64,000 nucleotides of DNA from an uncultured Kiloniellaceae bacterium (GCA_947493695.1 CANLSF010000003.1:62001-126000), one strand, 5' to 3'; shown: positions 26,235-32,989, counted from the stretch's first letter. Numbers and translations are program-made. Notes: generated from the sequence alone by a model not told the origin.

Positions 26235-26828
26235 ATGTTCCCGGTTCCCTTTGACGATGCCCTGCGCCTGAAGTCGCTTGCGTCGTACAACATTCTGGAT
26301 ACTTCGCCCGAAGAGGCCTTTGATCGCCTGACCAGACTTGCATGCGGGCAGTTCGGGACTCCCATCGCATTGCTGTCGTTGGTTGACGGCAAACGGCAAT
26401 GGTTTAAGTCGCGCCAGGGATTCGATACGCCCGAGACTCCCAGAGACCTGGCCTTTTGCGGACACGCAATATTATCGGACGCCCCCCTCGTGGTTCTCGA
26501 CACAAAACGGGACGCGCGGTTTAGAGCCAATCCGCTGGTGTGTGTCAGTCCGGGTGTCCGCTTCTATGCGGGTGCTCCTTTGCTCACCTGCGAAGGATAC
26601 CGGCTCGGCAGCTTATGCATTATGGATTTTGAGCCACGTACGGATCTCCCATCCGAGGACATTGCCGAACTCCAGGATTTTGCACATACGGCTATGCAAA
26701 TGATCGAATTGCGCAAACCTGTCGAAAACATGCAAAACCATGGTCCTCGAAACAAGGTCACACAGAAGCAAAAACTCCGGCCTTCATTGATATCGAACGC
26801 AACGCCAAATCTCACGTCGTTGCACTAA
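26235..26828 (+). CDS. GAF domain protein
   Basis: A 197-residue cytoplasmic protein made of one GAF domain (about residues 10-160) and an apparently disordered tail. The block FDRLTRLACGQFGTPIALLSLVDGKRQWF is the form seen at the N-terminus of many GAF-GGDEF and GAF-kinase proteins, followed by FCGHAILSDAPLVVLDT and RFYAGAPLLTCEGYRLGSLC. No output domain follows, so it may bind a ligand and act on a partner, or be a shortened sensor protein. AAGGA lies upstream of the ATG. The tail after residue 165 is basic and unlike a domain. Its neighbours are a chemoreceptor remnant and a tRNA gene. Confidence 0.85.
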   Translation: MFPVPFDDALRLKSLASYNILDTSPEEAFDRLTRLACGQFGTPIALLSLVDGKRQWFKSRQGFDTPETPRDLAFCGHAILSDAPLVVLDTKRDARFRANPLVCVSPGVRFYAGAPLLTCEGYRLGSLCIMDFEPRTDLPSEDIAELQDFAHTAMQMIELRKPVENMQNHGPRNKVTQKQKLRPSLISNATPNLTSLH

Positions 26829-26953: not shown

Positions 26954-27044
26954 TGGCGGAGAGAGAGGGATTCGAACCCTCGATACGCGATTAACGTATA
27001 CTCCCTTAGCAGGGGAGCGCCTTCAGCCACTCGGCCATCTCTCC
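26954..27044 (-). tRNA. tRNA-Ser (anticodon GCU)
   Basis: The minus strand reads GGAGAGATGGCCGAGTGGCT from 27044, the usual 5' end of a class II tRNA. The anticodon loop CTGCTAA gives anticodon GCT (serine, AGC/AGU codons). There is a long variable arm (GTATACGTTAATCGCGTAT), a T-loop GGGTTCGAATCCC, and an acceptor stem closing as CTCTCC-G with an encoded CCA (26956-26954). All stems pair. Confidence 0.97.
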
Positions 27045-28952: not shown

Positions 28953-31385
28953 CTAACCGGCCGCAACAGCTCTCTCGGTTTCGGCACTCACACGCAATTG
29001 CCATAACTTGGGCCAGGTGAAGTTGAAACGCGTACCGCGTCCGCTTGCAGGATCAGACACAATTTCAATGGAACAGTCGGCTACCTGGAGTTGCTTATTT
29101 ACGATCGCCAATCCCATACCGCTTCCTTCCACTTCGTCCCGGCCCTTAAGGGTCTGGAAGACGCCAAAGACACGTTCGTGAAACTCTGGCTCGATACCCG
29201 GTCCATCATCCTGCACAGAAAACGCATAACAGTCGTCCTGCTCCACAACCCCGACAGTGATCGTTCCCTCATTGAGGTCATGGTGCTTGATCGCGTTCGA
29301 CAGGAGATTCCGGAAGATCTGATGGAAAGGCGCCTTGGCTGTTACGAAACTCGGGAATTCGCCCTGCAGGATCAGCCTGAAATTCTTTCCCTGCATTACC
29401 AGATCAAATTCACTTTCAATGACCAGCCTGGCGTCGACGCCTCCGACCTTTTCATCCGACCGCCCGACGCGGGAGAACTTGAGCAAATCATCGAGCAATG
29501 CTTCCAGACGGGCGATCCGGCCCCGCAGAAGCGTCATGTTTTCTTTGCTCTCGTCATTCATCACCGCGCCCATATCGGCTTCGATCCAGGTGGCGAGATT
29601 ATCGATACCGCGCAACGGCGCCTTAAGATCGTGCGAGGCCACGTAGGCAAACTGAGCGAGTTCGGTGTTCGAGCGCTTGAGTTCCTCGGACTGCAGGGCC
29701 AACTTTGTTTCGGTCAATTTACGCTCTGTGATATCCGCAATGGAGCCCACCATCCGCACGGGATCCCCTACCTCATTCCGCGAAGCAAGGCCGTTTGCAT
29801 GGAACCAGAGGTATTCGCCCGACTTGTGGCGTAGGCGGTATTCCAAATCAAAAGGTGTCGCGTCATCAAAATGCGTCTGCACAACACGCGTCAGTTCATC
29901 GAGGTCATCAGGATGGATTAGGGACTTGAAAGAAGAGAAGCTCGCAGGAAGTTCCCCCACCTCATAGCCAAGCAGACGGTAAAAGTTCGGCGACCAGTAC
30001 TCTTCGTCCTCATTAATATTAATCCAGTCCCAAATCCCGACACTCGAACCCTCAGCCGCCAGAGCGAAGCGCTCTTCACTTTCTTTCAATGCAACAGTCT
30101 GACGCCGGAGCTCCATTTCCTGGTCGCGCAGTAGAATTGAGTTGTTGCGGAACACGCGAACGGCATTGGCAAGCGCGCCGAGCTCATCCTGGCCATGAAC
30201 ATGTATTCGCGATTCATGGTCGCCTCTAGCCAGATCAAGGGTCGCCGAGGTCAGAGTTTCGAGCCGCTTTACGATCTGCCGGCTCACAATAAAAACGATG
30301 ATCAGTGAAGACCCGACCAGGGCCATGGCAACAATAACGGTCAAAAGAATGCGGCTGGAGGAAATAGCGTCAGACGCAAACACCGCTTCCTCGGAAATTG
30401 CGTCTTCAGCCTGCTGCAAGAGAGCCGCGGCGCGCTGGTTGATGACTTCAGAAATCTCCACGATGTTTGCATGGAGACGATCGATTCTATCCTGCAGCCT
30501 CAACACCTCAGCGCTTGAAAGAAACACGCTCTCAGGTCCGGATACAGCAGAGGACAAGTCACGAAGGGAACCACCGATCTTTGTGCGTAGCTCTGTATCC
30601 TCCAAGCTCGACACCAGGCGAACCAGCGCACGCAGATCAAGATCGATCTCCGACTTCAATATACCCAGGCGATGCATATCGCGCTCGAACGAGCTCCGAT
30701 CAAGCTTGTGGGTAAGCGATTCAGCGCGAAACTGCAGTTCGATAAGTTGCTCGATACCTTCGATATCAGAACCGGTCACGCGATCAAAAAGCCCAAGGAA
30801 CTCTTCTGTTACCGCGTCCCCTTCATGCAGGGACTCCCTTAGCCGGTCGCTGTTCTCTATGAACTTGGAAGAGGACTCGATGACTATCGGCTTCACCGAC
30901 TCCAGTATCGCTTTTGCAGACGCATGCGCACGTTCGAGCTGCCTGCTCTGGCGCCTCTGTGCGCCGATGCGTTCTGCGACCTGTCTTTCCTGAGAAATTC
31001 GACTTGCCGACAATTGTGCAACCAGATCATCAAGGTGCCCGACAAGGCCGGTCGCCGTTCCGCTCTTCCTCAAGCGGCGAATCAGCGTAGGCAACTGAGT
31101 CAGCTGCGCCTCGATGCTGACGGTCTGATAGCTCAGCTCATTTTGAGAGGTGACCCCGGCGAGCGCAGAAGTCGAAGTGGTGAGTACAAAGGTTTGCTGC
31201 ACCAGTTGCTCAGCGACAATCATCGAAGGGACAGCCTGATCGACAATCCGCGTCTGTGCCTCTTCTATGACGCTGTAGCTGACGAAAGCAACGGCCGCGG
31301 CAGCGAAAGACAATCCCGAGACAGCATAAAATGCAATTCTCAAGCGCGCGCCAACACCCAGTCCTTTAACCCACTTTACAATCAT
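28953..31385 (-). CDS. Sensor histidine kinase with TorS-like periplasmic sensor, HAMP and PAS domains
   Basis: An 810-residue inner-membrane kinase. Order: TM1 about 17-39, a roughly 300-residue all-helical periplasmic domain (40-344), TM2 345-369, HAMP 370-422, PAS/PAC 433-555 (YRLLGYEVGELPASF...DITERK), HisKA with His585 (YVASHDLKAPLRGI), and HATPase with N box RNLLSNAIKHHD near 692, G1 DDGPGIE near 726 and G2 GSGMGLAIVNK near 754. The sensor start AVPSMIVAEQLVQQTFVLTT and the helical pattern resemble the TorS sensor, which binds a periplasmic binding protein. There is no receiver domain; the single-domain regulator downstream is the likely target. A solute-binding protein gene is divergent across 116 bases. 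Confidence 0.9.
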   Translation of the reverse strand: MIVKWVKGLGVGARLRIAFYAVSGLSFAAAAVAFVSYSVIEEAQTRIVDQAVPSMIVAEQLVQQTFVLTTSTSALAGVTSQNELSYQTVSIEAQLTQLPTLIRRLRKSGTATGLVGHLDDLVAQLSASRISQERQVAERIGAQRRQSRQLERAHASAKAILESVKPIVIESSSKFIENSDRLRESLHEGDAVTEEFLGLFDRVTGSDIEGIEQLIELQFRAESLTHKLDRSSFERDMHRLGILKSEIDLDLRALVRLVSSLEDTELRTKIGGSLRDLSSAVSGPESVFLSSAEVLRLQDRIDRLHANIVEISEVINQRAAALLQQAEDAISEEAVFASDAISSSRILLTVIVAMALVGSSLIIVFIVSRQIVKRLETLTSATLDLARGDHESRIHVHGQDELGALANAVRVFRNNSILLRDQEMELRRQTVALKESEERFALAAEGSSVGIWDWININEDEEYWSPNFYRLLGYEVGELPASFSSFKSLIHPDDLDELTRVVQTHFDDATPFDLEYRLRHKSGEYLWFHANGLASRNEVGDPVRMVGSIADITERKLTETKLALQSEELKRSNTELAQFAYVASHDLKAPLRGIDNLATWIEADMGAVMNDESKENMTLLRGRIARLEALLDDLLKFSRVGRSDEKVGGVDARLVIESEFDLVMQGKNFRLILQGEFPSFVTAKAPFHQIFRNLLSNAIKHHDLNEGTITVGVVEQDDCYAFSVQDDGPGIEPEFHERVFGVFQTLKGRDEVEGSGMGLAIVNKQLQVADCSIEIVSDPASGRGTRFNFTWPKLWQLRVSAETERAVAAG

Positions 31386-31501
31386 CGAATTCTTATCATC
31401 TGCTCTTTTTCGCGTCCTCCGAATTACAATAATAAACGTAACAACTCATAAATGCCTGATATACTATTATTTAAATTACTTAATGCATCGCGGGAAATAG
31501 C

Positions 31502-32989
31502 ATGGTCGGCAACTCTCCCTTTGGTGGCGTATCGCGTCGACAACTCCTGTACAGAGGTGCGGGAGCGGCATTGATCGGCGCCGGTTTCACGCTCCCAACC
31601 ACAAGCCTTTACGGCCAAACAGCACCGTTCTCACTTAACGGTCTCCACAGTGAAATCATGCAAAAGGTCAAATCGCTGGCCGCTCAGCGTGGGGTAGAGC
31701 TCTCAATTCTGCAACCTGAAGGTTCTTTGGGGAACATCAAACCTCTTGGCGATATTTTCTCAGAAGCGACAGGCGTTAAAATCAGTTACATCGAGGAGCC
31801 GGTCGACGACATCAATACGCAAATGATCATCGACAAGCTGTCCAACGCAGGCAGATTCGATCTCGCTTTGCCGGCGACCTTCGGGCTGCCCGATCTCATC
31901 GAGGCCGGTACTTTGCTTAACCTCGATGATCTTGCGGCACGCTATGCACCTGCTGACTTTCAGCGGGACGCTCTCTTCTCAATCGGCGACTACTACAAAG
32001 GCAGTCTCTACGGCTATCAAACCGACGGCGATACCTATCTGATGTTTTATAACCGAAGCTGGTTGGAGAACGCGGAGGAAAAGGAGCGCTTCGCAAACCT
32101 GCATGGGTATGAGCTGAAAGTCCCCGATACCTGGGCAGAGCTCGACACCATGATGGCTTTTTTCCATCGGCCGGATCAGAAGCGCTATGGCGGCGCCTTG
32201 TTTAGAAGCGCGAATTACGTCGCCTGGGAGTGGTGGACTCGATTTCACGCAAAAGGTTACTGGCCGTTTACAGAGGACATGGACCCGCAGATCAACAACG
32301 AAGCCGGAGAAGAAGCACTCGACGAACTGATCGCCGCTTCCAGACATCTCTACCCTGATGCCGCTACAAATGGTCTTTTCGACAACTGGAAGGCTTTCGC
32401 CGACGGTCAGATTTTCTGCAATATAGGCTGGGGCGGGACCCAAAAATTTCTGAACGGACCAGATTCGGCAATCCGCGGCAGACTTGCTTTCGGACCGACA
32501 CCCGGCGGCATCGTCGAGGGTGAACTCCTGCAGACGCCCTACTTCAACTGGGGCTGGAACTACACGGTTTCCAGCACGACGAAGGAACCCGAGATCGCCT
32601 ATCTCTTTGCGCTCTTCGCCTGCAGCCCCGAGATGTCAACGATCGCCGTGCAGCACCGTGAGGGCTACTTCGACCCCTTCCGCGAGGAGCACTACGACGA
32701 CCCCATGATCACCGAAGTCTACAGTGCCGAGTTTTTGGATGCTCATAAGGCCTCCATGCAGAAGAGTATTCCCGACCTCTACCTTCAGGGTCAGGGCGAG
32801 TACTTCGATGCCTTGCGGGAGAATATTATCAGAGCGTACAACGATGAAATCAGCTGTAAGGAAGCCCTGGACACCACAGCAAAGCAATGGCGTAAAACCA
32901 CGCGGCGCATGGGACGGCAGAGCCAAACCGAACAATGGAATTTTCTAAAGTCGCAGTATCCCGACGCGATTCGCGCGCGCCTGATCTAG
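31502..32989 (+). CDS. Tat-exported extracellular solute-binding protein (family 1-like), orphan
   Basis: A 495-residue periplasmic binding protein with a Tat signal (SRRQLLYRG, residues 11-19, then a hydrophobic stretch and a likely cleavage near residue 39). The mature part has the bilobal pattern of sugar/polyamine-type binding proteins: FSEATGVKISYIEEPVDD near 90, RFDLALPATFGLPDLIEAG near 120, YGYQTDGDTYLMFYNRSWL near 170, and WGWNYTVSSTTKEPEIAYLF near 345. No ABC permease or ATPase gene is in the neighbourhood. It is divergent from a sensor kinase with a TorS-like periplasmic domain, so a ligand-presenting role is plausible. Alternatively it serves a transporter encoded elsewhere. Confidence 0.85.
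   Translation: MVGNSPFGGVSRRQLLYRGAGAALIGAGFTLPTTSLYGQTAPFSLNGLHSEIMQKVKSLAAQRGVELSILQPEGSLGNIKPLGDIFSEATGVKISYIEEPVDDINTQMIIDKLSNAGRFDLALPATFGLPDLIEAGTLLNLDDLAARYAPADFQRDALFSIGDYYKGSLYGYQTDGDTYLMFYNRSWLENAEEKERFANLHGYELKVPDTWAELDTMMAFFHRPDQKRYGGALFRSANYVAWEWWTRFHAKGYWPFTEDMDPQINNEAGEEALDELIAASRHLYPDAATNGLFDNWKAFADGQIFCNIGWGGTQKFLNGPDSAIRGRLAFGPTPGGIVEGELLQTPYFNWGWNYTVSSTTKEPEIAYLFALFACSPEMSTIAVQHREGYFDPFREEHYDDPMITEVYSAEFLDAHKASMQKSIPDLYLQGQGEYFDALRENIIRAYNDEISCKEALDTTAKQWRKTTRRMGRQSQTEQWNFLKSQYPDAIRARLI

Follow-up and report, generated by a model that had tools for sequence, protein, structure and literature searches.

The window analysed here, a stretch of 64,000 nucleotides from an uncultured Kiloniellaceae bacterium, a marine alphaproteobacterium (GCA_947493695.1 CANLSF010000003.1:62001-126000), carries genes for a solute-binding protein (SBP), a sensor histidine kinase, and a single-domain response regulator. 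We judge, with a probability of roughly 0.8, that this three-gene module is an SBP-dependent receptor in which a MalE-type SBP takes the place of TorT in a TorT-TorS-like system. In the proposed mechanism, the SBP, predicted to be exported by twin-arginine translocation (Tat), would capture a small molecule in the periplasm and dock onto the sensor domain of the kinase, a TorS-type double four-helix bundle; as with TorT and TorS, docking would alter phosphorylation, here that of the Rcp1-type receiver. The SBP derives from that of an ATP-binding cassette (ABC) importer, with the ligand-binding core probably kept and the permease and ATPases lost, and the output in the window's branch would probably reach cyclic di-GMP (c-di-GMP) through an unlinked REC-GGDEF-EAL protein.

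As shown in Table 1, the open reading frames (ORFs) of the SBP and the kinase lie head-to-head, 116 bp apart, and ORF calls confirmed the positions given by an earlier reading made from the DNA sequence alone (the sequence-only reading). The receiver gene lies on the same strand as the kinase gene, 217 bp downstream of it. The single-domain regulator that had been supposed to complete the system is thus real and of the Rcp1 type, but its gene lies outside the interval originally assigned to the module.

The association of the SBP with a sensor was conserved in relatives. A homologue scan in which each species was represented by a single genome returned 54 relatives, whose neighbourhoods were sorted by gene calls; sensor-linked loci numbered 42 including the window, and three further loci (L107, L113, and L115), truncated at contig ends, were not counted as testable. 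Within the clade of the window SBP, the SBP gene adjoined that of a sensor with two transmembrane segments and a large periplasmic domain between them in 42 of the 43 testable loci. The linkage, which the sequence-only reading had proposed to seek across Alphaproteobacteria, extended to Gammaproteobacteria and Bdellovibrionota. Most sensor loci were divergent, and in Bdellovibrionota the genes ran in the same direction, touching or overlapping. HisKA and HATPase domains were both found in 39 of the 42 partners. The one testable locus without a partner, L106, was a contig of a metagenome-assembled genome encoding an SBP without a signal peptide, and this contig may be mis-assembled. Because the pairing recurs so regularly within a single SBP clade, it is not due to chance; the SBP gene is conserved beside a receptor gene and without a transporter of its own, as in SBP-dependent receptors.

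The window SBP matched the Pfam families SBP_bac_8 (64.5 bits) and SBP_bac_1 (51.5 bits), both above cut-off, and contained a Tat-like motif, S-R-R-Q-L-L, with the arginine pair at residues 12-13. These features agree with the earlier description of a solute-binding protein with a Tat signal, and the motif predicts Tat export. When the SBP family profile was searched against PDB sequences, the trehalose/maltose-binding protein 1eu8 was found at 2e-14, together with a sorbitol-binding protein and, as a weak match, SmoF, which binds sulfoquinovosyl-glycerol. The AlphaFold model (predicted local distance difference test score, pLDDT, 90.7) was nearest to MalE-type sugar-binding proteins (5iai, Z 40.3; MalE3, Z 38.2; SmoF, Z 37.9); both Pfam and fold place the protein among the MalE-type SBPs. 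The twin-arginine motif occurred in nearly all SBP relatives, in the sensor-linked and ABC-operon groups alike. Since ABC-operon relatives share the motif, and with sugar-binding proteins as the nearest folds, the suggestion that Tat export points to a bound metal or cofactor was rejected.

In the second context of the SBP relatives, the SBP gene belonged to an ABC operon that also encoded two permeases and two ATPases (L088, L091, L094-L099, and L121; the contig of L098 is cut after the first permease), and close homologues with 57-60% identity are encoded in complete operons of this kind. In an SBP tree rooted with ABC-operon outgroups, the sensor-linked SBPs formed one clade (support 100/99), which also contained the three truncated loci, labelled with it; the ABC group was basal and one context change was needed on the tree. 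That is, the sensor-linked SBPs arose once from SBPs of complete ABC operons. The sequence-only reading had named homologues lying usually in complete ABC operons as a finding that would speak against it; close homologues do lie there, but they form the basal group, and the clade of the window SBP itself is sensor-linked. In total, 113 SBP columns were conserved in the ABC and sensor groups alike, among them DGD (175-177), GWGG-QK (309-315), and YFNWGWNY (347-354), and few columns separated them (position 102, mostly Gly in the ABC group and Asp in the sensor group; position 239, Phe and Tyr, respectively). This shared conservation suggests that, although the transporter was lost, the SBP probably kept its ability to bind a ligand, and it fits the re-use of a binding protein whose ligand class stayed the same.

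The close homologues in complete ABC operons also lend weight to another explanation, namely that the SBP still feeds an unlinked ABC importer and that the divergent kinase-receiver pair only regulates its expression, without contact; divergent regulator-target pairs are common, and SBP-kinase neighbours can be functionally separate (PMC11113362). However, the best match to an ABC-group permease in the window's own genome was only 33% identical. As had been noted from the sequence, inspection of the gene calls revealed no recognisable ABC permease or ATPase gene in the window, and the window SBP gene is without the adjacent permease and ATPase genes of an importer SBP. Furthermore, the receiver has no DNA-binding domain and therefore cannot simply activate the SBP promoter; in one relative (L092) the SBP partner is a TorS domain-HAMP-GGDEF-EAL protein, which is no gene regulator; and the linkage persists in divergent and same-direction arrangements. 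We consider regulation of an unlinked importer unlikely.

The receptor reading also rests on the sensor domain of the kinase. PF21689 (TorS_sensor_domain) matched residues 52-328 with 46.2 bits against a cut-off of 27, and HAMP, PAS_3, and HATPase_c also scored above cut-off, with HisKA just under it (26.4 bits; cut-off 26.9). A profile built from 35 partner periplasmic domains and searched against PDB sequences found E. coli TorS (3i9w, 1e-13) and TorS of the TorS-TorT complexes (3o1h, 6e-7), and the first non-TorS match appeared at 0.016. AlphaFold modelled the periplasmic region, residues about 36-345, confidently (mean pLDDT 92.6) and with helices only, in line with the roughly 300 helical residues proposed earlier. 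The top six Foldseek ranks for this model were TorS chains. VIA-align gave Z 23.4 against 3o1i over 270 residues (root-mean-square deviation 3.0), and Z 23.4, 23.1, and 23.0 against TorS of the TorS-TorT complexes, the best non-TorS protein reaching Z 16.7. Helical bundles reach high structural scores by chance, but here the gap to the non-TorS proteins and the sequence profile agree, and the domain has the double four-helix-bundle fold of TorS. In this kinase, which the sequence-only reading had called TorS-like, the resemblance to TorS is confined to the sensor domain; the catalytic half, like the receiver, is similar to the phytochrome/Rcp1 type. His585 of the H-box and the N/G-box residues were among the near-invariant columns of the 42 partners. 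PAS_3, matched in six of the 42 partners, was present in the window's genus group and missing from most relatives, which are about 650 amino acids (aa) long.

Structurally related chemoreceptor bundles among the fold neighbours, e.g. McpS, bind ligands directly, and the kinase might likewise sense the ligand through its own helical bundle, the SBP playing an accessory part by scavenging or buffering that ligand. Across the pairs, however, the sensor domain was very divergent (median identity 13%) and the SBP conserved (49%), the opposite of what is expected for a pocket in the kinase, and the closest fold, TorS, acts through TorT. Direct sensing is thus a distinctly improbable account.

The receiver was most similar in the PDB to RcpA (1k68, 5e-24) and Rcp1 (1jlk/1i3c), and inspection of its sequence indicated that the acidic and phosphoacceptor residues are retained. 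A receiver gene was near the sensor gene in 30 of the 42 loci. Outputs varied within the sensor clade, consisting of a kinase with a receiver, a hybrid kinase, or the TorS-HAMP-GGDEF-EAL fusion. In five relatives (L071, L085, L089, L090, and L133) a REC-GGDEF-EAL gene lay beside the receiver gene; the products of the other four were 45-48% identical to the L085 copy, and the window genome encodes elsewhere a 71% identical relative of the latter with intact GGDEF and EAL motifs. Given the fusion, the linked genes, and this relative in the same genome, c-di-GMP is a likely but unproven output of the module in the window's branch. A same-genus relative (L069:6194-12616) has the pair a second time, in a divergent copy (about 50% identity for the SBP and about 28% for the kinase) with a REC-GGDEF-EAL-like gene beside it. 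In the Rhodobacterales loci L100 (11526-12263), L101, L102, L103, L104, L110, L126, and L134, the gene directly downstream of the SBP gene encodes an extra cytosolic kinase-like protein (about 250 aa), and a receiver protein of 225-275 aa is often nearby.

Several observations weigh against the receptor reading. PF21689 was matched individually by only 10 of the 42 partners, and the sensor type is not constant, since the periplasmic domain of the Bdellovibrionota partners is shorter (about 205 aa) and was missed by the TorS-type profile. The GGDEF-EAL gene is unlinked to the module in the window, and such genes were nearby in only 11 of 42 loci, some of them perhaps by chance. Adjacency of SBP and kinase genes does not guarantee a functional link: in P. 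aeruginosa, PA0602 and AgtB with AgtS, and PA4985 with AruS, are neighbours that showed no binding (PMC11113362). Finally, the co-variation of SBP and sensor-domain distances (r 0.73, 33 pairs) speaks for the reading, but SBP distances co-varied equally with those of the catalytic domain (r 0.74), so that this mirror-tree comparison is uninformative as proof of contact and does not separate contact from co-inheritance. The same equality would be compatible with SBP and kinase being co-inherited neighbours without a shared function; against this stand the tightness of the single clade, the occurrence of the pair in two gene arrangements and in several bacterial classes, and the near-complete linkage, and we give mere co-inheritance almost no credence.

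Among known systems, TorT-TorS is closest to the proposed receptor in the sensor (Z 23) and in the SBP gene adjoining and diverging from the kinase gene, as in the TorT-like/TorS pairs of L046 and L048. TorT belongs to Peripla_BP_1/Peripla_BP_4, families that the TorT-like proteins beside TorS-type kinases in relatives also match, whereas the window SBP is of the MalE type (SBP_bac_8/SBP_bac_1) with a Tat signal; the two families differ, as had been claimed. TorS is a hybrid kinase and its partner TorR binds DNA, whereas the window kinase is simple, with no Response_reg match, and is accompanied by a lone Rcp1-type receiver. A trimethylamine N-oxide system (TorS proper) was rejected, as the kinase scored 210 bits against the 676.5-bit cut-off of the NCBIfam TorS equivalog TIGR02956, is not a hybrid, and has a partner outside the TorT family. 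The receiver and kinase core are most similar to Rcp1/RcpA with phytochrome kinases, in which the input is a phytochrome and not a periplasmic sensor. LuxP and XylFII, partners of the histidine kinases LuxQ and LytS, are type I SBPs, and the maltose-binding protein and PstS, which act on chemoreceptors, also serve their importers. TorT-TorS, LuxP-LuxQ, and XylFII-LytS are precedents for SBP-dependent histidine kinases (PMC6321045), although the LuxQ sensor is a double PDC (PMC8534201) and that of the window a helical bundle. Type II SBPs stimulate helical periplasmic sensors in the maltose-binding protein with Tar and PstS with CtpL (PMC6321045), where the output is chemotaxis. NspS-MbaA likewise joins an orphan SBP resembling ABC-importer SBPs (PotD/PotF-like) to a membrane receptor with a c-di-GMP output (PMC9993111), the latter as in L092; in contrast, the window SBP most resembles sugar-binding proteins (in a comparison made with PotD), and its partner is a kinase and not a GGDEF-EAL protein, which sets the module apart from that group. 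SBP-activated receptors are already known to use no fewer than 13 SBP families, SBP_bac_8 among them (Matilla et al. 2021, as cited in PMC11113362). Because receptors with many SBP families and precedents for type II SBPs with helical sensors exist, the module adds a variant to a known kind and is not a new kind.

Other TorS-type kinases, whose SBP neighbours were sampled and not surveyed, adjoined TorT-like or RbsB-like proteins (L046, L048, L179, L180, and L184) or LivJ-like Peripla_BP_6 proteins (L053, L193, and L195), and many had no adjoining SBP. On account of these neighbours, the TorS-type bundle may be a general docking platform for unrelated SBP families (TorT-like, LivJ-like, and MalE-like) that relays their ligand state to interchangeable outputs (kinase, hybrid kinase, or GGDEF-EAL), the window module being the MalE-like branch that arose once by capture of an ABC importer SBP; we would put the odds of this generalisation at about even. 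If true, TorS-style indirect sensing would no longer be limited to type I binding proteins but would include the large MalE-type group, and the evolutionary step would be visible: an importer SBP was recruited a single time as a receptor subunit, which today occurs in different proteobacterial classes and in Bdellovibrionota. About 40 SBP-receptor pairs would form a defined set for interface mapping, and the ligand search would become tractable because the importer relatives still lie beside catabolic genes.

Fold and operon context point to a small polyol, sugar, or sugar-acid as the probable ligand. The operons of the basal ABC group contain genes for an HpsN-like dehydrogenase of the HisD family (433 bits to sulfopropanediol 3-dehydrogenase versus 265 to histidinol dehydrogenase), a metallo-beta-lactamase-fold protein, a malic enzyme, and an unnamed conserved protein, a context that suggests a small polyol, hydroxy-acid, or sulfonate. 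Malic enzyme, however, is not known to belong to the sulfopropanediol route. An HpsN-like gene is also present in the window's own genome, separate from the module and unlinked to it. A polyamine (NspS-like) reading was disfavoured, as the best PDB matches of the SBP profile were sugar binders and PotD appeared only at E 0.5. A relative of the HpsN-like dehydrogenase is encoded about 2 kb from the SBP in the sensor locus L112 (13320-14627). A conserved protein of 370-390 aa without a Pfam or NCBIfam match is always encoded downstream of the ABC genes (L094:15537-16694; L088, L091, L095-L097, L099, and L121).

Table 1 Features of the module in the window, with the dehydrogenase gene of the related ABC operons.
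Feature	Coordinates	Strand	Evidence
SBP gene, MalE-type (SBP_bac_8/SBP_bac_1), 495 aa	31502..32989	+	ORF call, Pfam, PDB profile, AlphaFold
Sensor histidine kinase gene, 810 aa (transmembrane segment - TorS-type periplasmic domain - transmembrane segment - HAMP - PAS - HisKA - HATPase)	28953..31385	-	
Kinase periplasmic sensor domain, residues 36-345, TorS-type double four-helix bundle	30351..31280	-	PF21689, profile, fold
Kinase HAMP domain, residues 367-415	30141..30287	-	PF00672
Kinase PAS_3 domain, residues 463-548	29742..29999	-	PF08447
Kinase HisKA + HATPase_c catalytic core, phytochrome-kinase-like	29007..29660	-	Pfam; PDB matches include bacteriophytochromes
Single-domain response regulator gene, Rcp1/RcpA type, 141 aa	28310..28735	-	PF00072, 59 bits
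Divergent intergenic region shared by SBP and kinase genes, 116 bp	31386..31501	.	
HpsN-like dehydrogenase gene beside ABC operon, also in relatives	L094:3662-4957		

The intergenic region contained one sigma-70-like match (+ strand, 31438-31465), which, with 0.4 expected by chance, is not evidence of function. Elsewhere in the window were a stand-alone GAF-domain protein of 197 aa (26235-26828, + strand), encoded about 1.5 kb from the receiver gene, a tRNA gene (26957-27044, - strand; Rfam RF00005), and a cobalamin riboswitch (1844-2058, + strand; 128 bits).

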